Translations under genes and position numbers: made by a program
From: Leeuwenhoekiella aestuarii
GTDB lineage: Bacteria; Bacteroidota; Bacteroidia; Flavobacteriales; Flavobacteriaceae
Assembly (NCBI RefSeq): GCF_004104055.1
Contig: NZ_QOVJ01000009.1
Location: 1-64,000, forward strand
Direction of reading: 5' to 3'
DNA length: 64,000 bases
Notes under the pieces: model-generated
Seen by the model: the letters and a program-made list of their open reading frames with translations, nothing else
Database searches by the model: none
Told to the model about the DNA's origin: nothing
Part shown: positions 23,061-47,441 of the stretch, in pieces
Layout of the letters: each line of letters opens with the position of its first letter
How positions within the stretch are numbered: the first letter of the stretch is position 1

Positions 23061-23079
23061 AAAAGTAAATTAATTCGGA

Positions 23080-24705: not shown

Positions 24706-24713
24706 TAGTCGTG

Positions 24714-30014: not shown

Positions 30015-30926
30015 CTAATCTACCTTTACGGGATTTTCTTGTTTCAGGGGCATATAAATATCTGCTTTCCATTCCATAGCATTTCCGCCCATATTAGGGT
30101 TATTGAAAAATACTTCCAAAGGTTTGGGATCGACTTCAATGTTGTTTTGTTTAGCGTAAGCCAAAAGCGCGTACCAGGCACGATCTGAAGTGATGTAGTT
30201 GCCGTTATATACTGCGTGAATGGCATCTTTTGTAAACAAGCGCTTATATTTAATTTCGTCTGTGATGGGCAGATTCTCAGACCGAATGATGGGAAAGCAA
30301 AAGTTATAAGAAATGCTGTCTGTATCTTGATTCCATTCGGTTATTTCTACAAATGGAGGGCCGTTCATTTCAACATTATTGCGCGTAAGAACGTCGCCTA
30401 TATAGCCATAATTGCGCATCATCCCCAAGGCTTTTGCTTCTTGCATACTTTTTAAGGAAATGTAAGCACAATAGGTAGAAGGTGTTTTTTCAATGCCCGT
30501 AACTTCTATTTTAATCTCTTTAAGATGCTGATTAAGTGTCTCGTAAAAATCCATTGCATTAGCAGTACTTCGCTCCTTAAAAAGTGTATTGGTAAAAGGC
30601 ACTGTTAGCCGATTTTTAAGGCTATGCTCAGCGTCTTTGACGCCAACGCTTACTTTGGTGATCGAATCATTAAGTGGAAAAACGTGAAAGGTATATGTTA
30701 CAGTTGTATCACCAAATTGCCGCTCTTGAATAATAGCTGAGGTTCCGTGCTGTTCTGTAATCGTACTAGCCGTTAAATTACTGCTCCAGCTTTTGACAGA
30801 TTGCATTACTGTACCCGGAGTTGTTTTTACTTTAAAGTTGATGATATAATCACTTGGCTTAATAAATAAATACCAACCTACGGCAATACATAATATTACA
30901 CCAATGGCAAGAAGTCCTTTTTTCAT
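30015..30926 (-). CDS. Membrane-anchored SRPBCC plus GyrI-like ligand-binding protein
   Basis: The 303 residues show one N-terminal membrane anchor (LLAIGVILCIAVGWYLFI), a region about 28-150 resembling a polyketide-cyclase/SRPBCC fold, and from about 155 a GyrI-like/AraC effector-binding domain (GPPFVEITEWN, VYNGNYITSDRAWYALLAYA). Without a DNA-binding domain it is probably a small-molecule-binding protein facing the periplasm. It is 8 bases downstream of the haloperoxidase-like gene and the last gene of the long minus-strand run beginning at susC, so it may belong to that system. No ligand can be suggested. Confidence 0.7.
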   Translation of the reverse strand: MKKGLLAIGVILCIAVGWYLFIKPSDYIINFKVKTTPGTVMQSVKSWSSNLTASTITEQHGTSAIIQERQFGDTTVTYTFHVFPLNDSITKVSVGVKDAEHSLKNRLTVPFTNTLFKERSTANAMDFYETLNQHLKEIKIEVTGIEKTPSTYCAYISLKSMQEAKALGMMRNYGYIGDVLTRNNVEMNGPPFVEITEWNQDTDSISYNFCFPIIRSENLPITDEIKYKRLFTKDAIHAVYNGNYITSDRAWYALLAYAKQNNIEVDPKPLEVFFNNPNMGGNAMEWKADIYMPLKQENPVKVD

Positions 30927-30934
30927 AAATGCAA

Positions 30935-32284
30935 TTAATTTGAAGCTTGAGCGGTATTGGTTTTCATGATAAGATTTTTAACCACAAACTGTCCTAACTG
31001 ACGACCTTGTTTTAAACCTTCGTCAATTGCGGCACGGTAATGAATACCACCGTAAAGTCTGCTTAAAGCAGCTTCTGAAGATGCTTGTCTAAAGGAGTCA
31101 AAACTACGTATGGGAAGTCCGTATGCGGTTTCGGTATCATCGTCAAACTGAAAATTATCTCCGTAGATTTGTGTGAGAACCTCGGCCGCTGCACCAGAAA
31201 CCACAGAGTGACCACTGCTGTACTCAGGAAAAGGAGGTGTTTGTAAAACAGGAGCCCAACTGTCATCTATATGCTGATTAATAAGTGTTTCGGGACGTAT
31301 GAGGTTACTTCTGTACTTTTCATCCCAACAACTTATAAAGCCATCAAAAAGCGCGATAGAGGTCTTTGTGTATGCGTAAACAGTCTCCATCAAATCTGCA
31401 TTGGCTTTTTTTGTGGCAATTTTTACAATCCCAACCCAGTGGCCACCTGGAGTAATCTTTTTTGTGGCAAACATTAAATGTCCTTTGTGAGTAGAAACAT
31501 ATGGGTTACAATCCCAGAACTGAGCGATCGCCACTTTTTCTGAGTCGTTTCCTTCATCAGACATCTCATTGCGTACAGTGTAAACTTCCATCAATTGCTT
31601 GTAAAATTCAGAGTCTTCTTCCATAGAAAATTCTGGTGGTGGAATGGGTTTAAATTGAGAAGCAGAGTCAATTACAAAGGTGCGAATCTTCATCCAATGC
31701 GGTTCTATTCCATCCATATAAGCAGGAGGAGTAGGTTGCCATCTTGAGGGATTGTCAGGATTTACCGAGAATTTAGGCATCGTACGCGTTTGCTTGTACA
31801 TATCCCCATCCATCCAGCTTTTAATGTGATCAGCAACTTTTAAACCATAGTCTTTAGAAGCTGCTAATTCTGTAGGATTCTGGTCTTCCCATTTCATATA
31901 TAAACTGTCGCGCATCTCAGTAATTCGATCTTCAGAAAAAATAAGACTTTTTGCTATTTCCATTTGAGCAATCAATGCAGCGACATCATAATTGACTGAT
32001 GCACCGGCATCAGGTTTAGGAGTTTCTTTTAAGTCTGTTAATTGACCGGCTAAAGTCACATAATCAGAGTTGTTTTGTGCTAAAACTTCGTAAGCAGCAA
32101 TATTAGAATAGGAGTAAATACGACTAGCAACAGGCGGTGAGAAAATATCGTGAATGATTACTTCGGTCACTTTATCTACCGCATTGTTGTAATCATTTGG
32201 TGTTACTTTAAGCGGTACTTCTTCTTTAGCACAAGAAGTAATTACAAGTGCGGCTATAAAAACTAAACTTATTTTTTTAAACAT
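30935..32284 (-). CDS. Vanadium-dependent haloperoxidase/PAP2-like lipoprotein
   Basis: Signal sequence ends ALVITSC, Cys18 lipidated. The helical core carries the three phosphate/vanadate-binding motifs of the PAP2/vanadium chloroperoxidase superfamily in order: KYRSNLIRP, then PEYSSGHSVVSG, then SRLYGGIHYRAAID. These keep Lys, Arg, Gly-His, the second Arg and the His that would bind vanadate. Whether it is a haloperoxidase or an acid phosphatase depends on residues I cannot judge. At 449 residues it matches bacterial vanadium-peroxidase-like proteins. It follows the three FG-GAP/UnbV lipoproteins after 49 bases on the same strand. Confidence 0.82.
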   Translation of the reverse strand: MFKKISLVFIAALVITSCAKEEVPLKVTPNDYNNAVDKVTEVIIHDIFSPPVASRIYSYSNIAAYEVLAQNNSDYVTLAGQLTDLKETPKPDAGASVNYDVAALIAQMEIAKSLIFSEDRITEMRDSLYMKWEDQNPTELAASKDYGLKVADHIKSWMDGDMYKQTRTMPKFSVNPDNPSRWQPTPPAYMDGIEPHWMKIRTFVIDSASQFKPIPPPEFSMEEDSEFYKQLMEVYTVRNEMSDEGNDSEKVAIAQFWDCNPYVSTHKGHLMFATKKITPGGHWVGIVKIATKKANADLMETVYAYTKTSIALFDGFISCWDEKYRSNLIRPETLINQHIDDSWAPVLQTPPFPEYSSGHSVVSGAAAEVLTQIYGDNFQFDDDTETAYGLPIRSFDSFRQASSEAALSRLYGGIHYRAAIDEGLKQGRQLGQFVVKNLIMKTNTAQASN

Positions 32285-32333
32285 AGTCCTAACTTAATTT
32301 AAGAAATACATCATTAAAGATGAATGCTTGTTT

Positions 32334-35300
32334 TTAATTTTTCAGTTTATAAAGTTGGATGGCTGCGTCATTAGGCGTTGCAAGTAAATACTTTTGACCT
32401 TTTAATGAAAGAATATTTAAATGACGAATTGATTTTTGTGTAAAATCTAAACCGATTTGATTCCCGGGAATAAACGTGTCAGCGTTTTTAATTAAAACTC
32501 CATCAAAGCTGTCTAATCTTCCGTGAAAGGGCTGAACGCCAAAATAGTTTCCTGCCGCGAGAACCTCTTCTCTACCGTCATTATCAAAGTCAAATTTACA
32601 AAAACTTAATACGGGAGCAACCTGAAAATCATACCCTAACGGAACAAAGGTAAATTGCCCGTTATCATTGCGCAAATACCCGGTTTTAAGCGTTGTTACT
32701 TCAAGTTTTTTACTTGTTTCTAATTGGTTTTCATTAAGAATTTCCTCAATGGTTTGACCGGCAAAATCTTTATAGCTATGGTATTTTTTTTTGAAACTCA
32801 CTACTTGCGAAGCTAAAGCGTCTAGTCCCATTAAGGGGTAGTATTTTCCGTTTTTTGCGGTAGTTACAATAGTTTCTGTTTGCCCATTCTTGTCAAAATC
32901 ATTGTAGTAGAGCAGCATCGGAGCATCTGCAGAAGCTTTAAATTTACTGTTTTCGCCCCAATTACCTAATATATAATCTGTGTCGCCGTCGTCGTCAATA
33001 TCAAACGGAATAATGCCTTGCCAGAGTCCGTTCAATTTTTCGGTTACAACTTCAGTTCGGGTAAGTTTTCCATTTTCATTTTTAAGAAATGTAGGCTCCA
33101 TCCATTCTCCCACTATAATAAGATCTTGTACGCCATCGCCACTAAAATCATCCCAGACGGCTGCAGTTACCATACCCAGATCTTTAAATTCTTGCGCTAA
33201 GCGGAAGGATCCCTTTTCATTTTCAAAGAGGTAAGAAACCGGTGTTTTGCCAAAATTTCCTGTGATACTTTGAGTTCCTGCAAAGACATCCAGATCGCCA
33301 TCGTTATCATAATCATATGTTACTAATATCGAAGTATTGTCAAAAAGCTCTGGCATAGTTGACTTCTCAAAACCTTCTACTGTATTTAAATACAAACCAT
33401 CTATTAAGGGTTTTGCTCTGTTAAAAAAGTCACCTCCCGCAGTACCGGTCATTACATCATTTTTTCCATTCTGATCAAAATCAGCTATAACTGCAGAAAC
33501 CTCTTCATTAATAGAATCATTGAGAATAGCCGGGTAACTAATGCGCTGATAGGTAGAATCTTTTTGTAGATAAATTTGAGAAGCGATGTATTTAGAACCG
33601 CCAAAGAATAAGTCTTCTTTGCCATCACCATCTATATCGCCTTGAGCAATTGCTGGTCCGCGATCACCTATCTGATATGGGATCAATTTCTCCCGATCAA
33701 AGTCTGAATAGGCATCTTCTTTATGAACAAAGTCAAGGCCTAAGCTGTCTGTGACTACTGTAAAAAGTATCTTTTTTCTCGGTTTGAGATTGTCAAAATT
33801 AAAAGATTGAGTGTTTTCTTCCTTTATTGTCAACGTTTGATTGGCTTCAACATTAGTTAATTTTTGGCTGGTCTTATCTGGCCAAATAATGCGAATAGAA
33901 TCTACTGTTTTTTCTTGGGCTAACCCAAAATGAATCAGTGGTTCTGAAGATGCCTGAAAACCTCTCACCGTATAGAGTTCTTTAAACTGTTTTATGCCAT
34001 TGGCATAAGCGTAGATTTTAGCACCAATGGCAAAATCATTTTTGCTTTTTGAAGTCAGTTTAATTTTAATGTAGTTTGCTTTTTGATTAGTCTGGTTGAT
34101 GTAAAAAGTAGGAGCAGCATTGATATTATTGGTCACCAAATCGAGGTCCCCGTCATTATCTAAATCTGCGTAAGCTGTAGCTCCAGAAACGATGGTGTCA
34201 TTTGCGATCCATTTACCGGACTGATCTTTAAAATTGAGATCTTCACTGCCTTCGTATACATAATTATGAGTAGTTCCGCTAGGCATAAGATCTAAGGCTT
34301 GTTGATCTATAAGCGCTGTATTATTTATTTTATTTTGAATCTGGTCACTTGATACAAACTTTATATAATCCAGATCATTGGGACGTTTTGGGATGCCATT
34401 TGAAATGAATAAATCTTGCTGCATATCTTGATTGTAATCGCCAAAAAGCGCACTCCAACTCCAGTCTGTAGCTGCAACGCCACTTAATAAAGCTGTCTCC
34501 TGGTAGTTACCACCTTCGCGGTTAATAAATAGCATATTTCGGGTAAACTGGTAGTGATATCCGTAACGGTCTGTGCGCAGACGCTGTGTTTGTATGTTGT
34601 CATCACCTTCAGATGCTTTTAAAACTTTCTCTTCTTGTGGTAGCATATCTAAAGAGATCAGATCTGGCCAACCGTCATGGTTTAAATCAGCAACATCACT
34701 ACCCATAGAAAATCTGCTAGTATGCCCAAAATGCTTTTTCAATGCTTCGATAAATGTACCGTCGCCATTATTTAAGTAATAATAATCATCTTCGTGAAAA
34801 TCGTTACCAATGTAGATATCAGGATAACCATCTAGATTAAAATCTGATACAGCGATGCCTAATCCATAGCTGTTTATTCCGCCGTAAATACCCGCTTCTT
34901 CGCTCACGTCTGTAAAATGATCTCCATCATTTCGCATCAGGCGGTCACCGGTTTGTGGATTGCGCTCGTAACGCAAATCTGCTTTTCCAAATGAACTCTG
35001 AGTATGTACCGCATGATTTAGAATATAAATATCTAGATCACCATCCAGATCGTAATCTAAAAAGGCTGCAGAAGAGGAAAAGGTATCCAGATCAAGACCG
35101 TATTCTGAAGCTTTCTCAGTAAAAGTACCATCACCATTGTTTATAAAAAGTTCGTTGTAACCGTCCAGACCGTTAAGCCCTACAACAGCACAAACATAAA
35201 TATCCAGAAAGCCATCTCCGTTAATATCGCCCATTACTGCACCGGTATTCCAATCGCTGTTTCCGGAAACTCCGGCAGTCTCGGTGATATCTTCAAATTT

Positions 35301-35573
35301 TAGATTTCCTTTATTGAGATAGAGTTCATTTTTTACCTGATTACCCGAAAAATAAACATCTGGCAATCCGTCGTTGTTGATATCGCCTATCGCAAGACCG
35401 CCTCCGTTATAAAAGTAGAGGTAATCTAAGATGTTCATATCTTCAGTCGCAGTAAGTGTGTTCTGGAAGGTAACTCCGATTTTTTCAGTGTCAGGATTGG
35501 TAAATAATTCGGGCTCTTTGGAACACGAAAAAGCGACAAAACCTAATAGTATGAGTACAACGGCTTTATTCAT
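32334..35573 (-). CDS. Giant lipoprotein, 7 FG-GAP/VCBS + UnbV + 7 FG-GAP (paralogue A)
   Basis: Third of three tandem paralogues in transcription order. Start at 35573 (MNKAVVLILLGFVAFSC, Cys17) is preferred to an in-frame ATG at 35603, giving an 8-base overlap with the gene upstream. I count seven calcium-binding-type DxDxDG repeats before the centre (from AIGDINNDGLPDVYFSGN to YADLDNDGDLDLVTNN), then an UnbV/ASPIC domain (NYIKIKLTSKSKNDFAIGAK to IRIIWPDKTSQKL), then seven more (GDIDGDGKEDLFFGG to FDFDNDGREEVLAAGN). Two seven-bladed propellers joined by UnbV are implied. Surface exposure is likely; the ligand is unknown. Database labels such as RNA-binding for this family have little basis. 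Confidence 0.85.
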   Translation of the reverse strand: MNKAVVLILLGFVAFSCSKEPELFTNPDTEKIGVTFQNTLTATEDMNILDYLYFYNGGGLAIGDINNDGLPDVYFSGNQVKNELYLNKGNLKFEDITETAGVSGNSDWNTGAVMGDINGDGFLDIYVCAVVGLNGLDGYNELFINNGDGTFTEKASEYGLDLDTFSSSAAFLDYDLDGDLDIYILNHAVHTQSSFGKADLRYERNPQTGDRLMRNDGDHFTDVSEEAGIYGGINSYGLGIAVSDFNLDGYPDIYIGNDFHEDDYYYLNNGDGTFIEALKKHFGHTSRFSMGSDVADLNHDGWPDLISLDMLPQEEKVLKASEGDDNIQTQRLRTDRYGYHYQFTRNMLFINREGGNYQETALLSGVAATDWSWSALFGDYNQDMQQDLFISNGIPKRPNDLDYIKFVSSDQIQNKINNTALIDQQALDLMPSGTTHNYVYEGSEDLNFKDQSGKWIANDTIVSGATAYADLDNDGDLDLVTNNINAAPTFYINQTNQKANYIKIKLTSKSKNDFAIGAKIYAYANGIKQFKELYTVRGFQASSEPLIHFGLAQEKTVDSIRIIWPDKTSQKLTNVEANQTLTIKEENTQSFNFDNLKPRKKILFTVVTDSLGLDFVHKEDAYSDFDREKLIPYQIGDRGPAIAQGDIDGDGKEDLFFGGSKYIASQIYLQKDSTYQRISYPAILNDSINEEVSAVIADFDQNGKNDVMTGTAGGDFFNRAKPLIDGLYLNTVEGFEKSTMPELFDNTSILVTYDYDNDGDLDVFAGTQSITGNFGKTPVSYLFENEKGSFRLAQEFKDLGMVTAAVWDDFSGDGVQDLIIVGEWMEPTFLKNENGKLTRTEVVTEKLNGLWQGIIPFDIDDDGDTDYILGNWGENSKFKASADAPMLLYYNDFDKNGQTETIVTTAKNGKYYPLMGLDALASQVVSFKKKYHSYKDFAGQTIEEILNENQLETSKKLEVTTLKTGYLRNDNGQFTFVPLGYDFQVAPVLSFCKFDFDNDGREEVLAAGNYFGVQPFHGRLDSFDGVLIKNADTFIPGNQIGLDFTQKSIRHLNILSLKGQKYLLATPNDAAIQLYKLKN

Positions 35574-38500
35574 TAAGTGCAAAAATCTTTGGTTTTTCAT
35601 CATTTACAGAAGCGATAAGGTAAACGTTTCCTTTATTGTCGCTAAACGTTGATAGGTGCTTGACTTCTCCTTTAATAAAGAATCCACTCTTATCATAATT
35701 CTGCCATTTGTAATTCGCATTGCCTTCGTTAAGCAGTACATTACCAAAACTTGCATCCAATTGTGAATATTGTGGCTTAAACTCATAATTGTTACCCGCC
35801 ATGATCAAGTCTGCAAGCCCGTCTTTATTGATATCGGCAGAAACTATATCGCAAACACAAGATAGTTGCGTCTGGTAAGGAAGTGGTTTTAGACTAAAGT
35901 TGCCTTTGCCATCATTAATAGCCAACATAGATTGAGAATATTTTACAGTTTTCTTGATCGCATTTTTTAAGCTCTCTGTTGAAAAAATCTCATCGATATA
36001 TCTACTGGCATAGTCTGAAGCTTTTAAGTTTTGTTTTTTAAGCGAACTCATTTGCGCCGTGATTTCCTTTTTCTGATGTAACGGATAATCTTTACCATTT
36101 TTGTGCATCGTGGTGATTTGTTCAATCGTTCCGTTATTGTCAAAATCATTAATGTACATAGACATTGGGTTTTCTGCCGTAGGTAAATAATGCAAGTTTT
36201 CTCCTTCGTTTCCTAAAACCAGATCCATATCGCCATCATTATCTATATCTACTGCAGTAATGGTATTCCACCAGCCGGTTTTGTCACTCAGATTATTCTC
36301 TTTTAATGAAATTCTTCTGCCTGAATTTCTATAAACTAGAGGGGAACCCCATTCTGAAACGGTAATCAGATCTTTTTTGTCGTCACCGTCAACATCAAGC
36401 CAGATCGCATCGGTCACCATACCGGCATCTTTAGTATCGTAAGCCAGACGTTCGGTGGCATCTACAAAAATGCCGTCTCCGGTATTCTCTAAAAATAATT
36501 GTGCAGGATCTATACCGTAAACCCCAACAACGCTGCGAGAACCAATAAAGACATCTGTATCGCCATCGCCATCAAAATCATAAGGAGCAACAACGCTCAT
36601 GTTTTGAAATGCTGACGGAAGTTCATTAGGTGATTTGCTTAAGTTGCCTTTGCCGTCATTGAGGTACAAGCGCGGTCTTAGCAACTCTTTTTTGCCCACT
36701 TCATTACCTCCGGAAGCTACTAATAAGTCAAGATCCCCATCACCGTCTGCATCAAAGAATGCAGCTGCTGTATCTTCAAAATTAGCTTCATCTTCAAAGA
36801 GCGACTGATTTTTTGCATTTAGTTTTCCACCGCCTAAATGTAGATATAGTTTTCCCGCACTTCCACTGGGAGCTCCTACAAAAATATCTTCATTTCCGTC
36901 ATTATTGACATCGCCTACAGCTATCGCCGGACCTTCCTGAGAAAGTTTTTTAGCAATTAGACCTTCATAATCAAAGTCATTGTAGTTGTTTTCTTTATTA
37001 GCTTTAAGCTTATCGTTATTAAGTTCTGTAAGTAATTGTGGTACTGTTTTTTGCTTCTGCGGAATAAATACTTCAGTAGCCTTAGCCTGATCGAGATTTA
37101 AAGTTTGATTTGCAGCCACTTCTTTGAATACTTCAGTTTTATCATTAGGCCAAAGCACGCGCAATGAATCTATGGTTTGCGTTTGCCCCAGACCTATAGT
37201 CATCTTATAATCCATAGAAGATTGAAAGCCTCGCACAGGATATAATTCCTGTAAAATCTCTTGCCCATCAAAATACAGGCGTACCGAAGCTCCCACTGCA
37301 AACGGATTCTTCTCAGCACCTTTAAAAGTGATATTTATATAATTGTTATCAGTTTGTTGTCTGCTCTCGTTGCGGTATATAAATGCCTGCATATTCACAT
37401 TATTCACCACAAGATCCAGATCGCCATCATTGTCCAGATCGCCATAAGCAGAACCGTTAGACATACTGGGAATGTCTAATCCCCATTTTTTACCGGCATC
37501 TTCAAAAGTGAGATCTTTTTTGTTGCGGTACACCGCATTGGGTAACGGTTTTTTAGGCATTTTATTAATGATAGAATCAATAGCCTGGCGCTTACCGGTG
37601 AGTGCCATATTTTGAATTATCTCATTAGCAAAGAAGTCTACGAAATCCAAATCAGTTAGATCGTGATTAATTCCGTTAGTTACATAAATATCGCGGTAGC
37701 CGTCGTTGTCTAAATCAGCTAATAATCCTGCCCAACTCCAGTCTGTAGCGTCTACACCGCTGTAATAGGCAGTTTCTGTAAACGAACCGTTACCGTTGTT
37801 TACCTGTAGGGTATTCTGAATAAATTGCTGATAGAAGTCTTTACTCTGTTTTAATTTATAAACATTATAACTGTCAAATTCCATCACAGATTTTACCCGC
37901 TCTTCAGGTTCGGGAAGCATATCAGTTATAAAAATATCTTGCAAACCATCATTGTTGATGTCAGAAATATCAACACCCATCGCGGAGAGAGAAAGGCGTG
38001 ATGTCCGGTTTTTAATATCTTCTTTGAACGTCCCGTCTTGTTGATTGATATAAAGATAATCGCGCTCGTAGAAGTCATTTGAGATGTAGATATCTGGATA
38101 AAGATCATTGTTGATGTCTGTGATCATTACTCCAAGACCAAAACCTATGAGGCTTCCGTAGATACCTGCTTCTTCACTTACATCTGTAAAAGTATCGCCA
38201 TCATTCCGCATTAAAAGATCACCTACACCTTTAAAAATATCAGGAACATTTTCCCAGTTTTCTGCGCGAGTATCACGCTGTTCAGCATATCCCAATCCAC
38301 TTACAGGCACATTACTGTTATTCAAAATATAGACGTCAAGATCCCCATCCTTATCATAGTCAAAAAAGCTGGCCTGTGTAGAAAAACCAGATTTAGCCAG
38401 ATTGTATTGCTTTGCTTTTTCGGTGAAAGTAAGATCCCCGTTATTGATGTAAAGATCATTGTCGTGGTTGTCTCCTTTCATATTACCGGCATTACTTACA

Positions 38501-38916
38501 TAAATATCCAGTAAGCCATCAGCATTCACATCTGCCATAACCACACCGGTAGACCAAGGTTTACTGCCGCCTACCCCAGCAGCTTCGGTAATGTCTTCAA
38601 ACTCAAAATTACCTTTGTTGAGGTAGAGTTTATTCTTTCCCATATTTGCGGTTAGGTAAATGTCTGCAAGACCGTCATTATTAATATCACCTATAGCAAC
38701 TCCACCACCATTGTAGAAATTTCGGTATTTAAAAATATTGAAATCTTTCTCATTTTTAATCGCATTTACAAAGTCTATACCGGTTTCTTCAGAAGCCATC
38801 AGGCTAAAGAGTGTAGGTTCTTTGCTAGTGGTCTCTTTCTCTTCTGAACCTTTATCGCCACAGGCAATAAGCATCAATACTAAGCCGAAAAAGTAAAGTT
38901 TATTAAGACTATTCAT
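35566..38916 (-). CDS. Giant lipoprotein, 7 FG-GAP/VCBS + UnbV + 7 FG-GAP (paralogue B)
   Basis: Middle paralogue, 1116 residues. Signal ends LMLIAC (Cys19), followed by an acidic linker GDKGSEEKETTSKE that may favour surface export. Seven repeats precede the UnbV domain (VAIGDINNDGLADIYLTAN first, YGDLDNDGDLDLVVNNV last); UnbV is seen in NYINITFKGAEKNPFAVGAS and LRVLWPNDKTEVF. Seven repeats follow (VGDVNNDGNEDIFVGAP to ADINKDGLADLIMAGNN). Its ATG overlaps the stop of paralogue C by one base (TGATG), so the pair is translationally coupled. The same architecture three times over argues for tandem duplication followed by clear divergence. Confidence 0.86.
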   Translation of the reverse strand: MNSLNKLYFFGLVLMLIACGDKGSEEKETTSKEPTLFSLMASEETGIDFVNAIKNEKDFNIFKYRNFYNGGGVAIGDINNDGLADIYLTANMGKNKLYLNKGNFEFEDITEAAGVGGSKPWSTGVVMADVNADGLLDIYVSNAGNMKGDNHDNDLYINNGDLTFTEKAKQYNLAKSGFSTQASFFDYDKDGDLDVYILNNSNVPVSGLGYAEQRDTRAENWENVPDIFKGVGDLLMRNDGDTFTDVSEEAGIYGSLIGFGLGVMITDINNDLYPDIYISNDFYERDYLYINQQDGTFKEDIKNRTSRLSLSAMGVDISDINNDGLQDIFITDMLPEPEERVKSVMEFDSYNVYKLKQSKDFYQQFIQNTLQVNNGNGSFTETAYYSGVDATDWSWAGLLADLDNDGYRDIYVTNGINHDLTDLDFVDFFANEIIQNMALTGKRQAIDSIINKMPKKPLPNAVYRNKKDLTFEDAGKKWGLDIPSMSNGSAYGDLDNDGDLDLVVNNVNMQAFIYRNESRQQTDNNYINITFKGAEKNPFAVGASVRLYFDGQEILQELYPVRGFQSSMDYKMTIGLGQTQTIDSLRVLWPNDKTEVFKEVAANQTLNLDQAKATEVFIPQKQKTVPQLLTELNNDKLKANKENNYNDFDYEGLIAKKLSQEGPAIAVGDVNNDGNEDIFVGAPSGSAGKLYLHLGGGKLNAKNQSLFEDEANFEDTAAAFFDADGDGDLDLLVASGGNEVGKKELLRPRLYLNDGKGNLSKSPNELPSAFQNMSVVAPYDFDGDGDTDVFIGSRSVVGVYGIDPAQLFLENTGDGIFVDATERLAYDTKDAGMVTDAIWLDVDGDDKKDLITVSEWGSPLVYRNSGRRISLKENNLSDKTGWWNTITAVDIDNDGDMDLVLGNEGENLHYLPTAENPMSMYINDFDNNGTIEQITTMHKNGKDYPLHQKKEITAQMSSLKKQNLKASDYASRYIDEIFSTESLKNAIKKTVKYSQSMLAINDGKGNFSLKPLPYQTQLSCVCDIVSADINKDGLADLIMAGNNYEFKPQYSQLDASFGNVLLNEGNANYKWQNYDKSGFFIKGEVKHLSTFSDNKGNVYLIASVNDEKPKIFALNE

Positions 38917-41900
38917 CAGTTATTCTCTTTTCTTAAAAATAGGGGTTTGTCATTATTACGACCTATAATATAATAGGTATTGTCTTTTATTTTTAGCGGT
39001 GCAATGCTGCGCACAGCTCCTTTAATATTAATTTTATGTTTCCCGGCGTACTTAAAATTATTACCGGTATTCAGAAGAAAAACACCGTGTGATGCATCTA
39101 ACCTTCCCAACTGTGTGCTAATCTCACTGTCATTACCCAAAAGTAGCAGATCGTTTAAGCCATCTTCATTAAAGTCTATAGCGGTGATAACTTTAACCGT
39201 TGAAACTTGCGCCATAAATGGCAGTTGATGTGCTTTAAACTCTAAGTTACCTACATTTTCAAAATACGTACTTGCGAGTTTAAAAACTTGTTTTTTTTCA
39301 GCTTTTTCTAATTTTTCTTCTGACAATAAATCGGTTATACTGGCTTGTGCAAATGCATGATAGCTTAAGAATTTCTTATTTAAAAAGGGGAGCTGTTTAA
39401 CCAGTTCATCTTTAGTTGCTAAAACCGTTTCTGAGCCTTTGTAATAATACGTAGTCACAGGATCAGTTTTGCCATTAGCATCAAAATCAAAGCGATATAA
39501 ATTAATAGGCCGTTCTAAAGAAGCCTTTAATCTTGTGTTTAAGCCCCAATTACCGACAATCATATCTAAATCACCATCTTGATCAAAATCTTCAACCAAG
39601 ATCGAGTTCCAGAATCCATTTGTGTTTTTTAGACTTTCAATATTTTGTAATTCTAGTTTAGAACCCGAATTCATCAAAATTTGTATTGGCATCCAATGAC
39701 CACAAACTATTGCATCAGGATATCCATTTGCATCCAGATCTGCCCAAATAATATCTTTTACATTTCCTAGTGTAGCAAATTCTGGAGCATAGGTTGTTGT
39801 GATATCTTCAAACTTTCCTTTTCCAGAATTTTTAAAAATATATTGCTTTGGAGTTGCACCAAATTCATGAGGAACTAAATCACTGGTAACCACTAAATCT
39901 AGTTTTCCGTCTTTATCAAGATCAACAGCTTTTATTTTTGACGCATTAAGTTCAATACCTTCAAAAGCATTATTTATTTTTTCAAAAGAACCTTTAGTGT
40001 TTAAGTAGAGTCGAGGAGTAAGGGCTTTACCATTTTTAAATTCGTTACCTCCGCTTGCTATAACAATATCAAGAGTTCCGTTATCGTCAACATCAAAAAG
40101 CGCTGCTCCGGTGTCTTCATTTATAGCATCTTCATCAGCATCAGGAAGAAAGCTCTGAGTGAAATTTCCTGTTTTGTTCTGAAAGAATATCGTTGTTTTT
40201 TGAGCCTTAGCACCCAGAATTATAAAGTCATCTAAACCATCATTATTCAAATCAGCAGTTTGAATTTGTGGGCCCGTATTAGTATTCGCGTAGGGAATAA
40301 GACCGTCTCTACTAAACTCAATAGAATTTCCGTCTTTGTGGTTAAAATCTACCTGAAGAGAATCAATAGTCCAGTTGATTTCATTTTCAGAATTGTTTAT
40401 GTTTTTTTCTTTTGATTCAGCATTGCTTTCAGATAAGACAAGATTTGAGTTTGTATTTGTCAAAATCTGTTGTTTTCCTGATGGCCAAACGACCATAAGA
40501 GAATCTAATTGTTCGGTATCGCCCAACCCCACAAAAACAGAGGGGGGTACAGCAGACATAAAACCTCGTGTGGTGTAATTTTCAAAAGCTTGTTTTCTAT
40601 TATTTTGATAGGCGATGAGTTTTGCTCCAATGCCAAAAGTGTTTTTGTCTTCCCCTTTAAACTGAATTAGAATGCCTTTCTGAGTTGATTGTTGAGCTGT
40701 TGTGTTTTCAAGAATATAGGCTTCTTCATTAACGTTATTAACGACAATATCCAGATCCCCATCATTATCCAAGTCAGCATAAGAAGCCCCGTTGCTAAAA
40801 GATGGTTTATTTGCAGTCCATAACTGGGTGACATCCTCAAAAGTACCGTCGGCATTATTTTTATACATGTAGTTTGCTACATGAGTTTCTGGGAGTTTTT
40901 TGATGAATTCCATTTCTGTTTCAGACATGTTTTTGCCTAATCTTTTCTGAATAGACTCATTAGAAATAAAATTCACAAAATCCATATCGTTGGTCGCGCC
41001 CAGAATTCCGTTTGCTATATAAATGTCTTTAAAACCATCGTTATCAAAATCAGCAATAAGTGGAGTCCAAGACCATTCAGTAGCGGCAATTCCACTTTGA
41101 AAAGCAGTTTCCGCGAAGCGACCATCACCTAAATTGAGCTGTAGCGTATTTTGCATAAACTGGTAATCATAACCGTTACGCAACTGATTTTGGTAAATAG
41201 GGTAGGAATATTCATTCCCAGAAGCCTTGAGAACTTCCAGATTTTCAGGAAGCATATCGAGACTTAAAATATCTGTGTTTCCGTCGTTATTAATGTCAGC
41301 AATATCAGTTCCCATAGAAAAGTGTGAGGTGTGCCCTAAACTTTTTTCTGTGGTATTAAGCTCTGAAAATGTTCCGTCTTGATTATTAAGATAGAGGTAA
41401 TCATTTTCAAAAAAATCATTTGCGATATATAAATCAGGATAGCTGTCATTGTTAATGTCAGAGACTGAAACACCAAGACCGTAGCCTATTTTACTCCTTA
41501 ATATACCTGCTTCTTCAGTGATGTCTGTAAAATAACCGTTGTTATTTTGGTACAATTTATCACCAAGTAAACTATCTGCTTTTTTACGAACAGCAGCTTT
41601 ACCATAATTGGCGTTGGGATGAACCGAATGATTGAGTAAATACATGTCGAGGTCGCCATCTAAGTCATAATCAAAGAAAGAAGCCTGAGTGGAAAGGCCT
41701 GCATAATCCAGACCATATTCAGCAGCAGCTTCTTTAAATTTTGGAACGCCATTTTGCTCGCCGATATTTATGTATAATTTGTTGCGCCCCTTAAGTTGTA
41801 AATGACCGCTTACTGTGCATACATAAATATCCAGTAGGCCATCTGCGTTGATGTCAACAACAGTGACACCTGTATTCCAACTTTTAGTGTCATAAATTCC

Positions 41901-42209
41901 GGAAGCTGAGGTAATGTCTTTAAATTTAAAATCACCTACATTAAGGTATAACTTATCTGAAACTTGATTCCCTGTAAAATAAATATCGGGTAACCCGTCA
42001 TTATTGAAATCTGCAATAGCTGTACCGCCACCATTGTAGAAGTAGAGGTAGTTGAGAATGTTGAGTTGAGGAGTGCTGGTTAATGTATTTTTAAAATCTA
42101 CCCCAGAATCAGCAATATAAGCTAATTTATAGGACTTACTTTCCTTTTCGCAAGAACAGCAAAAAGTGTAAATCAAAACGATTATAGTATAAAGATGTAA
42201 TCGCGGCAT
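38916..42209 (-). CDS. Giant lipoprotein, 7 FG-GAP/VCBS + UnbV + 7 FG-GAP (paralogue C)
   Basis: First paralogue after susD, 1097 residues. Signal ends YTFCCSC with Cys20 as the likely lipidated residue, though Cys17 and Cys18 sit close by. All three paralogues share the opening FYNGGG-AI-D. Seven repeats (IADFNNDGLPDIYFTGN to YADLDNDGDLDIVVNNV), UnbV (ILIQFKGEDKNTFGIGAK to LMVVWPSGKQQIL) and seven repeats (TADLNNDGLDDFIILGA to AIDFNEDGLNDLLLLGN) follow. It is separated from susD by 93 bases carrying a terminator-like hairpin, so its expression is probably lower than that of SusCD. Confidence 0.86.
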   Translation of the reverse strand: MPRLHLYTIIVLIYTFCCSCEKESKSYKLAYIADSGVDFKNTLTSTPQLNILNYLYFYNGGGTAIADFNNDGLPDIYFTGNQVSDKLYLNVGDFKFKDITSASGIYDTKSWNTGVTVVDINADGLLDIYVCTVSGHLQLKGRNKLYINIGEQNGVPKFKEAAAEYGLDYAGLSTQASFFDYDLDGDLDMYLLNHSVHPNANYGKAAVRKKADSLLGDKLYQNNNGYFTDITEEAGILRSKIGYGLGVSVSDINNDSYPDLYIANDFFENDYLYLNNQDGTFSELNTTEKSLGHTSHFSMGTDIADINNDGNTDILSLDMLPENLEVLKASGNEYSYPIYQNQLRNGYDYQFMQNTLQLNLGDGRFAETAFQSGIAATEWSWTPLIADFDNDGFKDIYIANGILGATNDMDFVNFISNESIQKRLGKNMSETEMEFIKKLPETHVANYMYKNNADGTFEDVTQLWTANKPSFSNGASYADLDNDGDLDIVVNNVNEEAYILENTTAQQSTQKGILIQFKGEDKNTFGIGAKLIAYQNNRKQAFENYTTRGFMSAVPPSVFVGLGDTEQLDSLMVVWPSGKQQILTNTNSNLVLSESNAESKEKNINNSENEINWTIDSLQVDFNHKDGNSIEFSRDGLIPYANTNTGPQIQTADLNNDGLDDFIILGAKAQKTTIFFQNKTGNFTQSFLPDADEDAINEDTGAALFDVDDNGTLDIVIASGGNEFKNGKALTPRLYLNTKGSFEKINNAFEGIELNASKIKAVDLDKDGKLDLVVTSDLVPHEFGATPKQYIFKNSGKGKFEDITTTYAPEFATLGNVKDIIWADLDANGYPDAIVCGHWMPIQILMNSGSKLELQNIESLKNTNGFWNSILVEDFDQDGDLDMIVGNWGLNTRLKASLERPINLYRFDFDANGKTDPVTTYYYKGSETVLATKDELVKQLPFLNKKFLSYHAFAQASITDLLSEEKLEKAEKKQVFKLASTYFENVGNLEFKAHQLPFMAQVSTVKVITAIDFNEDGLNDLLLLGNDSEISTQLGRLDASHGVFLLNTGNNFKYAGKHKINIKGAVRSIAPLKIKDNTYYIIGRNNDKPLFLRKENN

Positions 42210-42248
42210 AGAGTAGGTTACAGTAGTTTTGGGAAAGTTACTAATTTA

Positions 42249-42276
42249 AAAAGAGGACCATAAATGATCCTCTTTT
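42249..42276 (-). terminator. Terminator-like hairpin between susD and the lipoprotein genes
   Basis: AAAAGAGGA (42249-42257) and TCCTCTTTT (42268-42276) form a nine-pair stem with a ten-base loop. Read on the minus strand it ends in TCCTCTTTTT followed by AAATT, a modest intrinsic terminator. It would cut down transcription from susCD into the three lipoprotein genes, a common way to keep SusCD in excess. Confidence 0.6.
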
Positions 42277-42302
42277 CTATTATGGGTAACAAAATATAAG
42301 GA

Positions 42303-43925
42303 TTAATATCCAGGATTTTGAACAAGATTTGGATTTAAAATAACCTGTGTATTTGGGATTGGGAAAAGATTCTTTTCGTCATTCCCTACCGCAGAAGGAT
42401 CTTTAAATGCCCAGTCTTTAGTATACTGACCAAAACGAATCAAGTCATTACGTCTCCAAAATTCAATGTATAATTCACGACCGCGCTCATCGATAATATC
42501 CTGATCTGTAAGACTAGTCAGAGGAGTTGCATCTCTCAATGTTCTTAAGTCATTCATAAGCGTCAACGCATCGTCAGAGCTAGTACCACCATTATGAATC
42601 GCTTCAATTTTCATCAAATAAGCATCAGAATAGCGGAAGAATATCTCGTGTTCTCTAAAAGCACCATTTCTAGGGTTGTATTTGATTACGCGAATTCCGG
42701 TTTGTTCACCATTTTCAACCAGACTTGGTTCACCTGTTCCAGCATCAACAAAATCACGTTTGAATTGTAAGGGTACATTACCTCTATCAGTAAGTTCATC
42801 CCCATTAAGCGCATATTGCTGACCGATTAGGAATCCATACCCAACATTTGAAGCATCAGCAAAACCATCATTGTCAGTATCACTCATCAAATCTTGGCCA
42901 GTGAAGGCAATACCGCTTTGAGCAACATAACCTCTACGTTCTTCCTGACCCTCGCCAGGATTATTAGAATCAGAAGGTCCTTCAAATAGATCGTAGTATT
43001 CTGCTAGTGTAGCAAAACCATTCCAACCACCACCTGTGTTATCAGGGTGTGTAAAATTATAATGTAGTGTATTCCAGATACGGTTACCTGTTGATGTGTT
43101 TATGTACCAAATAGTTTCTGAATCTGGAGTAGGCTCAAACATTTCAAAATAACCATCCTCTAAAGCATATCCATCGTCTTCGATTTCTTCTACTAGCGTA
43201 ATTACTTCATTCATATCTGATGAAGCTGGGCTTCCCGTTTTTTCGTAGATATGTCTGTTTAAGTGAACTTTTGCCAACAAGTATCTTGCGGCAGCTTTAG
43301 TTGCTCGTGGATTGTCATCTCCAGCAGAAGAAGATGGCAAACCAGAGATAGCATTCTGTAAATCAGAAACAATAAAAGATACGGCATCTGCACCAGTTAA
43401 AACTTCTGGATTTTCACGAGGATCCGCAGTTGTATCTCTAAATGGAACCTGGCCAAAATTATCGAGAATTACAAACATACCTAAAGCACGTAAGAAAGAT
43501 GCTTGGGCACGAGATTCATCTGAAGAAGCGGATCTTTCATCTAATACAGTACTTGAAGTTAACTGTAACTCATTCCACTGGTCAAAGACTGTTCTTATAT
43601 ACTGATGATCTGCAGTCCAGGTATGCTGATGCATTTGTCTCCAGATACCGTTATCCCCCCAGTCAGAACCTCTAGTAGGTACTAATTGTGCATCTGTAGT
43701 AACTTCACTTAGGGCATATAAGTTAGCCTGATCTCCAACGTAACCTTGAATATTATTATACATTCCGCTTACAGTACTGGCTGCTTCATCAGCAGTTGGT
43801 ATACCCGTAAAGCCATCTGTAAGTATCGAATCTGTCTCTTCAATTTCTAAGTCAGTACAAGCTGTAAAAGCCGCTGCTGTAAGAAAACTGAGAAAGACCA
43901 ATTTAATTTGTTTTGTTCTTTTCAT
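42303..43925 (-). CDS. susD: SusD-like outer-membrane nutrient-binding lipoprotein
   Basis: Surface lipoprotein forming a lid on the SusC channel and binding the incoming substrate. Signal ends AAAFTAC (Cys23) followed by acidic TDLEIEETD, compatible with surface export. RagB/SusD landmarks are RALGMFVILDNFGQVPFRDT, AARYLLAKVHLNRHIY with the tetratricopeptide-like helices, and the C-terminal DERGRELYIEFWRRNDLIRFG. At 540 residues it is complete. It lies 18 bases after susC. The ligand cannot be predicted: no polysaccharide-degrading gene is attached to this pair. Confidence 0.94.
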   Translation of the reverse strand: MKRTKQIKLVFLSFLTAAAFTACTDLEIEETDSILTDGFTGIPTADEAASTVSGMYNNIQGYVGDQANLYALSEVTTDAQLVPTRGSDWGDNGIWRQMHQHTWTADHQYIRTVFDQWNELQLTSSTVLDERSASSDESRAQASFLRALGMFVILDNFGQVPFRDTTADPRENPEVLTGADAVSFIVSDLQNAISGLPSSSAGDDNPRATKAAARYLLAKVHLNRHIYEKTGSPASSDMNEVITLVEEIEDDGYALEDGYFEMFEPTPDSETIWYINTSTGNRIWNTLHYNFTHPDNTGGGWNGFATLAEYYDLFEGPSDSNNPGEGQEERRGYVAQSGIAFTGQDLMSDTDNDGFADASNVGYGFLIGQQYALNGDELTDRGNVPLQFKRDFVDAGTGEPSLVENGEQTGIRVIKYNPRNGAFREHEIFFRYSDAYLMKIEAIHNGGTSSDDALTLMNDLRTLRDATPLTSLTDQDIIDERGRELYIEFWRRNDLIRFGQYTKDWAFKDPSAVGNDEKNLFPIPNTQVILNPNLVQNPGY

Positions 43926-43943
43926 TTTATCAATTTTTTATAA

Positions 43944-46900
43944 TTAAAACTTAGCGTTTAATCCTATTGTTACTGTAGTGGGTCTTGGGAAAGACGTATA
44001 GTCTATTCCTGCACTTGGAATACCGCTACCAAAATCACCTGTAGTAGATGACACTTCTGGATCAAGACCGCTGTAACCGGTGATTAAAAATAAATTTTGA
44101 CCAGTAACATTTACTCTGAGTGATTGAACTGCAGATCCTTCGCGCATAGGGACATTATAGCCTATAGACGCATTTTGAAGTCTTACAAAATCACCACTTT
44201 CTAAGTAAAGGGTTGAAACTTCCTGAGAAACAAGGGCCAATCCATCTGGAGTGGCATTTCTTGAAGTAAGAAAAGTAGGTCTGTTAAGAAACGCATTCGC
44301 TGTATTGTTATACACATAAAAACCAAACTGACCGGTAAAGAAGGTTGAGAAGTCCCAGTTTTTTACACTTAAATTAAGTGATAAACCTGTATTCCAATCT
44401 GGTAATGCATCTTTTCCAACAAAATCTTTATCATCTGCAGAAAAGTTAGGAGTACCATCAGCATCCTCAGCATATTCAGCCATATAATACGAAAATAATG
44501 ATCTTCCCTCTCCAAGTCTTTGTACAAATGCACCAGTAAGACCAGGACCATTTACCTCACCAAAATTAGCGACGGCACCATTTAGGCCAGTTACTTCATT
44601 GTGGTTGTATGAAATATTAAATGAAGCAGAAAAATTCACATCTTCAGTTTGAATCAAGTCATAGTTAAGGGCTAATTCAACCCCTTTGTTAATTACCTCA
44701 CCATCTTCTAAGTTTACGAATCTGAATGGATCAAAAGCTGGTGCCGGAGCCGGAGATCTAAATAAAAGATCTCGTGTAGCTTTGCGATATAGGTCAAGCG
44801 AACCATTAAAGCGGTCGTTGTTAAAACCAAAGTCAATACCAAAGTTTAAATCAATTGTAGATTCCCATTTAAGATCTGGGTTTTGTACCGCTACAGTTTC
44901 TAGACCAGGTCTGTTAACTGTCCCGTCATCCGTAATAGAAGGACCACCAAAACGCTGTCTGTTTAAGTACTGAGCATAACCCAGGCCTTCCTGATTACCA
45001 GTAGAACCTGCACCTACTCGAAGTTTAAGCGTAGAGAATGCATCACCTACGAAATCTTCATCACCCAGTTGCCATGCAAATGCTGCAGAAGGGAAATAAC
45101 CATACTTGTTGTTTTCGCCAAAACGCGAAGAACCATCAGCTCTCATCGTTGCAGTAAGTAAATATTTATCAGCAAAAGTTAACTGAACACGTGCAAAATA
45201 AGATTGTAACTCATCTGTATTGTCAAAGGTATCTAACCACAATGATTCATATACACCGTTAAATGATGGTAAAACTCCAGAATCATCAAATGGCATTAAT
45301 GAATTTAGGAACGTGTTAGCACCATTAGAATCATATCCAAATTGCTGATAAGGGGTATTAATTAAACCACGTAAATCACTTACTGCACCTCTTAAAGTAC
45401 TCTGCATGTCTACAAGGTTTGTAACTGGTGATCCATAACCCTGAGCATTAAAGCCCTGACGTCTGAAATCCTGAAACGAATAACCAGCAAGTGCGTCAAT
45501 CTTGAAGCCATCAAAATCTTTAGCATAACGCAGGGTTGTTTCTAGTAATTTACTGGTGTTTTCTAATGTGTTGTATGAAGCCTGACCATTATCTGTAACC
45601 CTGTTAAAGTTATTGATATTAGGAGATACAGCAGCTTGAGCTTCTGCGTCAGATTTGTCATAACCTAAACTTACTTTACCGGTAATTGCATCGGTAAATT
45701 TATATTCAGTTGATAGGTTTAACAGGTATCTGTTTGTATTTGTAATTGAGTAGTAATTATTAAGGTAGTTTGCAGGATTCAAGAGGTTTCCGGCAAAGAA
45801 AAACTCAGGGTCTGCGGGCCAAGTTGGATTAGCAGAGTAAGCAGCACCAATAAGGTTACCACTTGCACCTCCCTGACCACTAATTGGTGGCGCTTCGTCA
45901 TTTACACGAGAATAAGAAGCTTGGAGTGCAAAACTCAATTTATCATCAAAAAAACGTTGATTGGCATTAAGACGTGTAGTAATACGCTCTTGTGATGAAT
46001 TTTGAATAACACCTTCAATGTTTCCATAACTTACAGTTGCTCGTACATTACCTGAGTTGTAGTTATTAGAATAAGAAAGGTTATTATTTGTAGAGATTGT
46101 TGAACGTGTAATATAATCCTGCCAGTCTGTTTCTGATCCAAAATCAAGATCATTAGCAATATCCTGACCTCTTAAGTCAGCAGTATTAGCAAGAAATTCC
46201 TGAGCATTAAAAAGGTCATATTCTCTTGCTGGTGCAGAAAAGCTCATACTTGTAGACAGTTCAAATACACCACCCTGAGAGCCACGACCACTTTTGGTCG
46301 TTACGATAACAACCCCATTAGCACCACGAGAACCGTAAATTGCTGTTGCAGAGGCATCTTTCAAGATAGATATGCTCTCAATATCGTTAGGGTTGATAAA
46401 GTTTAAAGGGTTTCTGGTAGCGTTTGCACCATTTATAATATCACCACCTGATGGGGTTGTAGACTCACCAGAAAGTGGAATACCATCAACAACAAAAAGT
46501 GGATTGTTATTAGAACGAATAGAGTTTGAACCCCTGATTCTAATGTTATTTCCAGCACCAGGTTCACCACTATTTTGTGAGATGTTTACCCCTGCCGTTT
46601 TACCTTGAATCAATTGTTCAGGAGAAGCGATAGCACCTTGATTAAATTCTTCTGCAGTAACAGAAGAAACAGACCCGGTTGCATCACGTACAGTTGTAGT
46701 TCCATAACCAATAACCACAACCTCTTCAAGAGCTGCAGCATCTTCTTCTAGGGTTACACTAATAGTAGACCTGCCATTAACAGCAACCTCCTGTTGTGAA
46801 AATCCTACATAACTAAATACAAGTGTTGCATCTGAAGGAACATTGTTTAAGGTATAGTTACCATCAAAATCTGTTGTAGTGCCATTTGTGGTTCCCTTGA

Positions 46901-47030
46901 CTAGAACGTTTGCGCCAGGCAATGGGCCATTGGGTTCTGATACTGTTCCGGATACTGTTTGTGCTTGCGCCATACCTGCCAGTAAGAGCGAAGCGAAAAA
47001 CAACATACTTCTAAGTATTACATGCTTCAT
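43944..47030 (-). CDS. susC: SusC-like TonB-dependent outer-membrane transporter
   Basis: TonB-dependent importer of the SusC/RagA family. The start at 47030 (MKHVILRSMLFFASLLLAGM, signal ending AQAQ) is preferred to an upstream in-frame ATG at 47183, which would add 51 residues before the signal. After cleavage comes the carboxypeptidase-D-like domain (VSGTVSEPNGPLPGANVLVK), then the TonB-box-like region EEVVVIGYGTT, the plug (IRIRGSNSIRSNNNPLFVVD, KDASATAIYGSRGANGVV) and a beta-barrel ending in TVTIGLNAKF. The 1028-residue length is normal. No sigma/anti-sigma or hybrid two-component regulator adjoins it. Confidence 0.95.
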   Translation of the reverse strand: MKHVILRSMLFFASLLLAGMAQAQTVSGTVSEPNGPLPGANVLVKGTTNGTTTDFDGNYTLNNVPSDATLVFSYVGFSQQEVAVNGRSTISVTLEEDAAALEEVVVIGYGTTTVRDATGSVSSVTAEEFNQGAIASPEQLIQGKTAGVNISQNSGEPGAGNNIRIRGSNSIRSNNNPLFVVDGIPLSGESTTPSGGDIINGANATRNPLNFINPNDIESISILKDASATAIYGSRGANGVVIVTTKSGRGSQGGVFELSTSMSFSAPAREYDLFNAQEFLANTADLRGQDIANDLDFGSETDWQDYITRSTISTNNNLSYSNNYNSGNVRATVSYGNIEGVIQNSSQERITTRLNANQRFFDDKLSFALQASYSRVNDEAPPISGQGGASGNLIGAAYSANPTWPADPEFFFAGNLLNPANYLNNYYSITNTNRYLLNLSTEYKFTDAITGKVSLGYDKSDAEAQAAVSPNINNFNRVTDNGQASYNTLENTSKLLETTLRYAKDFDGFKIDALAGYSFQDFRRQGFNAQGYGSPVTNLVDMQSTLRGAVSDLRGLINTPYQQFGYDSNGANTFLNSLMPFDDSGVLPSFNGVYESLWLDTFDNTDELQSYFARVQLTFADKYLLTATMRADGSSRFGENNKYGYFPSAAFAWQLGDEDFVGDAFSTLKLRVGAGSTGNQEGLGYAQYLNRQRFGGPSITDDGTVNRPGLETVAVQNPDLKWESTIDLNFGIDFGFNNDRFNGSLDLYRKATRDLLFRSPAPAPAFDPFRFVNLEDGEVINKGVELALNYDLIQTEDVNFSASFNISYNHNEVTGLNGAVANFGEVNGPGLTGAFVQRLGEGRSLFSYYMAEYAEDADGTPNFSADDKDFVGKDALPDWNTGLSLNLSVKNWDFSTFFTGQFGFYVYNNTANAFLNRPTFLTSRNATPDGLALVSQEVSTLYLESGDFVRLQNASIGYNVPMREGSAVQSLRVNVTGQNLFLITGYSGLDPEVSSTTGDFGSGIPSAGIDYTSFPRPTTVTIGLNAKF

Positions 47031-47083
47031 AAGTTTGAATTTTAATTGAATTATTGGTTTTTCCAAAAGTGTTTCTTGGTCAT

Positions 47084-47091: not shown

Positions 47092-47441
47092 TATAAATAA
47101 TTGAATAAATAAGGGTAACTACAACGTTTAAGTAACGAAATCGATATAGTTTTGAAAACTGTAAAAAATACGCTTATCCTCAATATATTATCAAATAACT
47201 AATAATATCTAATAATATAGTGAAAAAATTATGAAATATTCATACTGTTGAAATTTTCGCCTAAAAGAGTTTAGTGAATCTTGTGATTCTTTTTTTTTGA
47301 AAAAAATTAAAAGTAACCTCAAAAAAACATCTTAAATAGTACTTTTTTACCTGCACAAAACACCCTTTTTAATTCTTAAAACGTCAAATCTGTGTAACCT
47401 ATAAATTAGAAATGTCTTAAAAGCTTATTTAATAAGGTACT

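Follow-up and report, generated by a model that had tools for sequence, protein, structure and literature searches.

What does a SusCD transporter import when the genes behind it encode giant propeller lipoproteins and a peroxidase in place of the carbohydrate-active enzymes (CAZymes) of a polysaccharide utilisation locus? The question is raised by positions 30015-47030 of a 64,000 nt stretch of Leeuwenhoekiella aestuarii DNA (assembly GCF_004104055.1, contig NZ_QOVJ01000009.1), here called the window, to which all position numbers refer; G- and L-labels denote the genomes and loci compared with it, G000 being the window's own genome. Our tentative answer, to which we give slightly less than an even chance, is a sugar-responsive SusCD uptake locus without a depolymerase of its own, combined with a surface vanadium iodoperoxidase. 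The observations behind it are the gene content, the orthology of the iodoperoxidase, the synteny, the neighbouring sugar genes, palindromes upstream of susC and the exchange of SusCD. An earlier sequence-only reading of the window had described the genes and their coherence, which are confirmed, and had proposed a non-glycan cargo, which is not supported; the closer identity of the enzyme and the recurrent SusCD exchange are added here.

The locus consists of seven open reading frames (ORFs), all on the minus strand, in the order susC, susD, Vc, Vb, Va, P, G from 47030 down:

43944..47030, minus strand: SusC/RagA TonB-dependent transporter (C), 1028 aa from the ATG; TIGR04056 694.8 bits against a cut-off of 368.25, Pfam plug (114-240), barrel and CarbopepD_reg_2
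42303..43925, minus strand: SusD/RagB lipoprotein (D); PF07980 E 1.2e-19, best PDB sequence matches 3jys and the starch SusD 3ck7
38916..42209, minus strand: propeller lipoprotein Vc, 1097 aa; Pfam FG-GAP and UnbV_ASPIC
35566..38916, minus strand: propeller lipoprotein Vb, 1116 aa; Pfam FG-GAP and UnbV_ASPIC, AlphaFold2 model and Foldseek
32334..35603, minus strand: propeller lipoprotein Va, 1089 aa; Pfam FG-GAP and UnbV_ASPIC
30935..32284, minus strand: vanadium iodoperoxidase-type lipoprotein (P); sequence match to 4CIT/4USZ, Pfam PAP2
30015..30926, minus strand: GyrI-like small-molecule-binding protein (G) with an N-terminal hydrophobic stretch; PF06445 26.2 against 26 bits

These are the same-strand susC, susD, three lipoproteins of about 1080-1116 residues, haloperoxidase/PAP2 lipoprotein and GyrI/SRPBCC gene of the sequence-only reading, all seven of them at the places it gave and with the propellers measuring 1089, 1116 and 1097 aa. 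The genes are separated by short gaps or overlaps, a layout which suggests one operon. Each is backed by Pfam or NCBIfam matches, those of PAP2 (29.9 against 27.2 bits) and GyrI being marginal; the GyrI part of the last label stands, barely over the cut-off, and the SRPBCC part, which was the earlier reading's own, found no match in Pfam or NCBIfam. Read by eye, five of the seven sequences show a cysteine at a lipobox-like position. By the ORF list and Pfam there is, as had been said, no CAZyme or regulator inside 30015-47030. With SusC above its curated cut-off and SusD adjacent the pair is a SusCD transporter; the SusD scores 131.9 bits with NF033071, the starch SusD family, which requires more than 725 bits. 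The locus resembles SusCD polysaccharide and sugar loci in this pair, in the surface lipoprotein genes after susD and in the sugar-catabolism genes close by, but it is not a classical polysaccharide utilisation locus (PUL), since GH65 and GH32 genes lie outside it, flanking a LacI gene, and CRTAC1-like propellers and the peroxidase take the place of the CAZymes.

P matches PDB entries 4CIT/4USZ with E 1.7e-209 over residues 3-445, at 65.0% identity over 443 residues, and 4USZ is the vanadium iodoperoxidase of Zobellia galactanivorans (PMC5064120). The remaining two PDB matches are a vanadium-dependent haloperoxidase (E 1.3e-5) and NapH1 (E 7.6e-5). The motif K-x6-RP, SGH and SR-x5-H, which we take to be the vanadate site of vanadium haloperoxidases, is found in P at positions 323-331, 357-359 and 408-415, and K323, R330, S357-G358-H359, R409 and H415 are invariant in 28 out of 28 aligned ortholog rows. 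Judged by its sequence, P is a vanadium-haloperoxidase-type protein and an ortholog of the crystallised iodoperoxidase over its full length, which makes the earlier description as vanadium-peroxidase-like more precise. That P is instead a PAP2 acid phosphatase acting on a phosphorylated ligand appears very improbable: it has the Pfam PAP2 match and a catalytic motif common to phosphatases and vanadium peroxidases, but it also has that level of identity to a deposited vanadium-dependent haloperoxidase, and its other PDB matches are a haloperoxidase and NapH1.

An enzyme identical to the crystallised one occurs in the same kind of cluster. In genome G165 P is 100% identical to it over 445 residues, for which reason G165 is probably Zobellia galactanivorans, and the genes run SSF, Vc, Vb, Va, P, G; upstream, past an interruption by a GH2-type gene and DNA polymerase genes, are found susC, susD and a divergent operon of LacI, PGM (phosphoglucomutase) and GH65. 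Neither a SusCD/propeller locus for the Zobellia iodoperoxidase nor any SusCD/UnbV/iodoperoxidase cluster was described in the titles and abstract openings of the open-licence literature among the matches listed. A structurally solved bacterial iodoperoxidase thereby gains a genomic setting and a testable inducer, and sugar feeding would be linked to iodide oxidation in Flavobacteriaceae.

Within the family set of 149 genomes, 60 genomes, the window's own among them, yield 62 matches to P at E below 1e-100; out of the 61 others 51 loci were read, 20 kb each, and ten were left out. A same-strand V accompanies P in 48 of these 51 loci, one has V on the opposite strand only and two are without V. 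C, D and V occur together in 36, some of the absences of C and D being an effect of the 20 kb edge, and propellers do accompany SusCD; a same-strand G homolog is present in 31, following P in the gene orders displayed. At least three kinds of SusCD partner occur, window-like ones at about 45-70% identity, intermediate ones at about 32-40%, with G, and distant ones at about 25-33% over longer matches, without G. Among the best 80 of 585 named candidate loci, six of which duplicate loci of the family or genus sets, 74 carry a same-strand V and 60 a G, and the names include Zobellia, Arenibacter, Maribacter, Aquimarina, Dokdonia and Flavobacterium. The sequence-only reading had proposed a neighbourhood search and had named a lack of co-conservation as a reason to abandon it; the gene set is kept across many genera.

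This constancy also bears on the explanation that P is a merely co-transcribed enzyme of defence or detoxification, scavenging peroxide or turning hypoiodite against competitors, and mechanistically unlinked to import by SusCD, which we consider somewhat unlikely. In L085 and L089 P has no V, C or D homolog within 20 kb, and SASA esterase and sulfatase genes are near. According to PMC9296495, vIPO3, one of the vanadium iodoperoxidases of Zobellia, is raised on Ascophyllum and is discussed together with algal defence; the same paper reports that the Zobellia PULs for maltose and fructose are repressed on algae. On the other side stand the 48 loci with a same-strand V, which is found beside P oftener than SusC or SusD.

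Genes of sugar catabolism lie near the cluster. A convergent MarC gene adjoins G, and beyond it follow GH65, beta-phosphoglucomutase, LacI, GH32, a sugar transporter of the MFS family and PfkB, the genes for LacI, beta-phosphoglucomutase, GH65 and GH32 being within the window at 1-7 kb from the cluster:

26494..28800, plus strand: GH65 phosphorylase-type enzyme; NF010380 1163.1 against 838 bits
25835..26491, plus strand: beta-phosphoglucomutase; TIGR01990 223.8 against 189.4 bits
24787..25833, plus strand: LacI-family regulator, the predicted regulator of the cluster; Pfam LacI and Peripla_BP_3
20830..24630, minus strand: PfkB sugar kinase, sugar MFS transporter and GH32, by Pfam; the GH32 gene is 23080-24630 and comes nearest to the sucrose-6-phosphate hydrolase family, below its cut-off

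In the relatives the sugar genes recur in other arrangements, their labels there being given by sequence similarity and family tests having been made for the window, L056 and L270. Some relatives carry xylAB genes beside or inside the cluster; XylA is present in nine of the 51 loci; six of these have it between susD and V, two between V and P, and one upstream. In seven distinct loci a GH13 or GH97 gene comes directly downstream: GH13 in L080, L083, L092 and L093 (in the last two assigned by clustering with tested members), GH97 in L071, L084 and L091. An SSF symporter gene is found in 14 loci, with PDB matches led by sodium/glucose cotransporters (E 2.5e-68); its identification as a sodium/iodide symporter was considered and rejected, as sodium/iodide cotransporters match far lower (E 2.1e-16). 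Eighteen further stretches upstream of susC, picked by position and not randomly, contain GH65 in eight cases, usually together with PGM, LacI and a GH13-like gene, GH32, MFS and PfkB in five, and LacI with a second SusC in three.

The upstream region of susC provides a possible link between the cluster and these genes. Five loci yielded the palindrome ACGAAAMCGKTTTCGT, a LacI-type site by its form, which was searched for with up to two mismatches within 250 bases upstream of susC. It is present in 17 of 27 testable loci of relatives, in nine of them with at most one mismatch, and in 15 of 25 when L056 and L067, two of its source loci, are left out; the 17 control susC genes are without it, and 60 rounds of shuffling gave no sequence that contains it. 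The window carries the variant ACTTAAWCGWTTTAGT:

47118..47133, minus strand: operator-like palindrome upstream of susC, ACTTAAACGTTGTAGT, by motif search; one of the three genome sites with at most one mismatch
47135..47150, minus strand: adjacent operator-like palindrome, ACTATATCGATTTCGT, by motif search
47439..47454, minus strand: upstream operator-like site, 14 bases identical to the site between GH32 and LacI; the divergent gene at 47514 is closer to it than susC is
24694..24709, plus strand: operator-like site between the GH32 and LacI genes, ACTTAATCGATTTAGT, by motif search; shares the 14-mer

The upstream regions of susC and GH32-LacI thus have 14 bases exactly in common. At three mismatches ACTTAAWCGWTTTAGT matches the window 12 times, some of these being one site read on both strands, against 4.35 expected, and 12 was reached by one shuffle in 100. 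In the whole genome three sites only have at most one mismatch, those at 24694 and 47118 and a third in front of an MFS gene. Within the genus, nine of the loci from 12 other genomes have at least one susC-side site with up to two mismatches (none in L123, L124 and L125), and the LacI-side site is exact in L129. Co-regulation of susCD with a glycan-degrading gene set elsewhere, which the sequence-only reading had said would tell against it, is at the level of prediction supported by the palindromes at susC and the site between GH32 and LacI. The third genome site, G000:C6:52024-52039, immediately precedes an MFS gene of 391 aa that comes nearest to AraJ, with a score under the AraJ cut-off. 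Since the stretch added to the susC ORF by its TTG start (47031-47183) overlaps the operator-like palindromes, translation probably begins at the ATG at 47030 and leaves this stretch untranslated.

The sugar operons may also be neighbours by chromosomal inheritance, without a functional tie to the V-P cluster, which we hold to be unlikely. Some arrangements are clade-wide, and two other genes with no evident sugar role, X286 (about 286 aa) and Mph1239 (a 1239-aa protein with a metallophosphatase domain), are frequent around the cluster as well, in 57 and 48 of 146 loci, six of them double-counted. Against this, differing sugar modules are located upstream, inside and downstream of the cluster, and the susC promoter often has the palindrome.

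For the propellers FG-GAP and UnbV_ASPIC matches in Pfam indicate a CRTAC1-like fold, and for Vb a double propeller is backed by an AlphaFold2 model (mean pLDDT, predicted local distance difference test, 81.6; pTM, predicted template modelling score, 0.82), whereas a model of SusD is of low confidence (mean pLDDT 62.7). The top Foldseek match of Vb is CRTAC1 9etn (E 5.3e-26, TMt 0.70 over 593 columns), further top matches are generic multi-propeller proteins, and the 50 matches listed include no conspicuous catalytic fold. In distinction to CRTAC1, there is a second propeller in the bacterial protein, of which the window has three tandem copies; some relatives' clusters are without a Vc ortholog. 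Twenty V loci outside P clusters, from nine genomes, were read by eye for their gene orders, and 15 of them have a same-strand SusC upstream of the V paralog. Proteins tested at these loci include GH92, GH3, a glucoamylase-type protein, an acetyl xylan esterase and a sulfatase, and tests around three other V genes of the window's genome gave GH3 and an esterase (L048), GH10 and GH97 (L049) and GH2 and GH97 (L052). Given the SusC genes and the glycosidases alongside, V appears often to accompany SusCD in carbohydrate loci.

These paralogs weigh in the judgement of the sequence-only reading's own explanation, in which SusCD and the propellers import a halogenated, phenolic or phosphorylated non-glycan that is processed by the peroxidase/phosphatase-like enzyme. 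We regard it as quite improbable. It had been drawn from 17 kb without a CAZyme and agrees with P being a haloperoxidase ortholog, and in L055, L061, L070 and L073 V, P and G are retained and the 20 kb read contain no SusCD match; G165, a close relative of L061, however has its SusCD pair further upstream. The step from a missing CAZyme to a non-glycan cargo finds no support, in view of the sugar-catabolism genes beside and around the cluster in the window and many relatives, of the LacI-type palindromes and of the V paralogs in glycosidase loci.

The transporter differs sharply between the window and its closest genome, G144:

42300..46690, minus strand: exchange cassette with the whole of susD and susC from about residue 110-127 (plug and barrel), placed by the drop in DNA identity to G144

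On both flanks DNA identity to G144 is 93-99% per 500 bases; inside about 42300-46690 it abruptly falls, mostly to 45-75% per 50 bases, the edges, set against L053, being sharp. The proteins follow this pattern (BLAST: P 99%, Vb 98%, SusC 60%, SusD 48%; global alignment: SusC 61%, SusD 51%), whereas all seven of seven other matched SusC/SusD ortholog pairs of the two genomes are at 97.4-99.5% for SusC and 94.6-99.5% for SusD. In the trees of P and Vb the window joins G144, and in those of SusC and SusD it joins G157, G152 and G154. The approximately unbiased (AU) test rejects the grouping with G144 for SusD (p 1e-118) and SusC (p 3e-6), and the alternative grouping for P (5e-5) and Vb (1.5e-5).

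The same pattern is seen in G126/G160 (SusC 58, SusD 48, P 89 and LacI 89% identity) and G165/G162 (60, 49, 87 and 80%), for which fast divergence may be an alternative to exchange, control pairs having been read for the window and G144 only. The window's SusD is 65% identical to that of L081 and 64% to that of the Zobellia-group genome G162, against 51% to G144, whose own SusD has its best outside matches in L066 (72%) and G165 (71%). In a quick tree with some poorly supported deeper nodes, the SusD data reject a Leeuwenhoekiella clade (p 9e-88) as well as the pairing of G165 with G162 (p 1e-63); for P the G165/G162 pair is supported and the Leeuwenhoekiella clade not rejected (p 0.88). The whole of susD thus moves together with the plug and barrel of susC as one exchange cassette at a fixed locus, and the SusD classes cross genera. 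A comparable case is ragAB of P. gingivalis, with four alleles (PMC11817032), in which transporter and lid likewise vary jointly as alleles at a fixed locus; the present system differs in that its SusD classes cross genera and one swap edge is at the susC plug domain. The sharp-edged swap in an otherwise constant cluster constitutes a natural experiment, in which the selectivity of SusCD can be told apart from the work of the rest of the complex. The G gene (30015-30926) for its part diverges much faster than P and V within genera (in G126/G160 51% against 89% for P), and its divergence does not follow the SusCD class.

If the locus is a sugar-responsive uptake system with an iodoperoxidase, a small sugar would free the operon from a LacI-family repressor; this sugar would probably be sucrose or an alpha-glucoside, and in some genera a compound that yields xylose. 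It would be imported by SusCD, with the CRTAC1-like propellers as putative surface binding or scaffold lipoproteins, and the lipid-anchored peroxidase would oxidise iodide, or another halide, with ambient hydrogen peroxide at the feeding surface, so that P would remove peroxide and make hypoiodite. The identity of the sugar and the use of hypoiodite are the weakest steps. A bolder version, which we also think unlikely, makes this a single machine coupled to feeding: the sugar would derepress a surface complex that imports it and runs the iodoperoxidase on peroxide from feeding or from an algal host, the hypoiodite would serve iodine capture or as a weapon, and the SusCD types would be ancient cross-genus alleles selected by the variety of ligands, or by phages or toxins using SusCD as a door. 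If true, it would offer a candidate genetic basis for iodine uptake in Arenibacter, which depends on glucose, oxygen and calcium and for which a haloperoxidase was proposed (PMC5064120).

Several observations weigh against the sugar-responsive reading. The seven-gene cluster itself has no CAZyme, and as the neighbouring sugar genes vary by genus (GH65, GH32, xylAB) no single substrate emerges. The cluster is also found in Flavobacterium species with freshwater- or ice-related names, a poor fit with a role tied to seawater iodide. Probes for LacI, PGM, GH65, GH13, GH97 and XylA match 29 of the 51 P loci and none of the 20 other V loci or of 19 loci of a second PAP2 gene (P', see below), but as they were taken from the window and from P-locus neighbours, and so favour P loci, this contrast is evidence that the genes recur here and not that sugar genes are lacking elsewhere; glycosidases of other kinds are present at the control V loci, the uncounted SSF and MFS probes each matched one of the 20, and the probed sugar genes are absent in two of the 18 extended loci (L293 and L300). 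ACGAAAMCGKTTTCGT is absent from 10 of the 27 susC upstream regions. The window's operator consensus was partly built from the very sites it is to explain, and at two mismatches ACTTAAWCGWTTTAGT is not enriched in the genome (38 matches against 63 for the reversed control), on which account a genome-wide regulon was discarded.

P' is a second PAP2/haloperoxidase-like gene (about 500 aa), 27% identical to P, which in L049 (G000:C7:145000-164900) comes after SusC-SusD-V and is followed by the GH10 gene and further on by GH97. A general link of P' to xylanases was not retained, since among the loci read the order SusC-SusD-V-P'-GH10 is found only in the window's genome and G144, and none of the other 19 P' loci fetched, 14 with a close P' (62-68%) and five with a distant PAP2 only (22-34%), three being short contig pieces, has SusD, V or GH10 beside it.

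X286 (L054:1172-2035 and relatives) is present in 54 of 140 distinct loci, where it mostly follows G or P. The idea of a hidden CAZyme was dropped, the protein being without a match in Pfam and NCBIfam. A homolog is found elsewhere in the window's genome and nine of 13 genus genomes, the window's own included, have matches, so that X286 is probably outside the core of the cluster; it often adjoins Mph1239.

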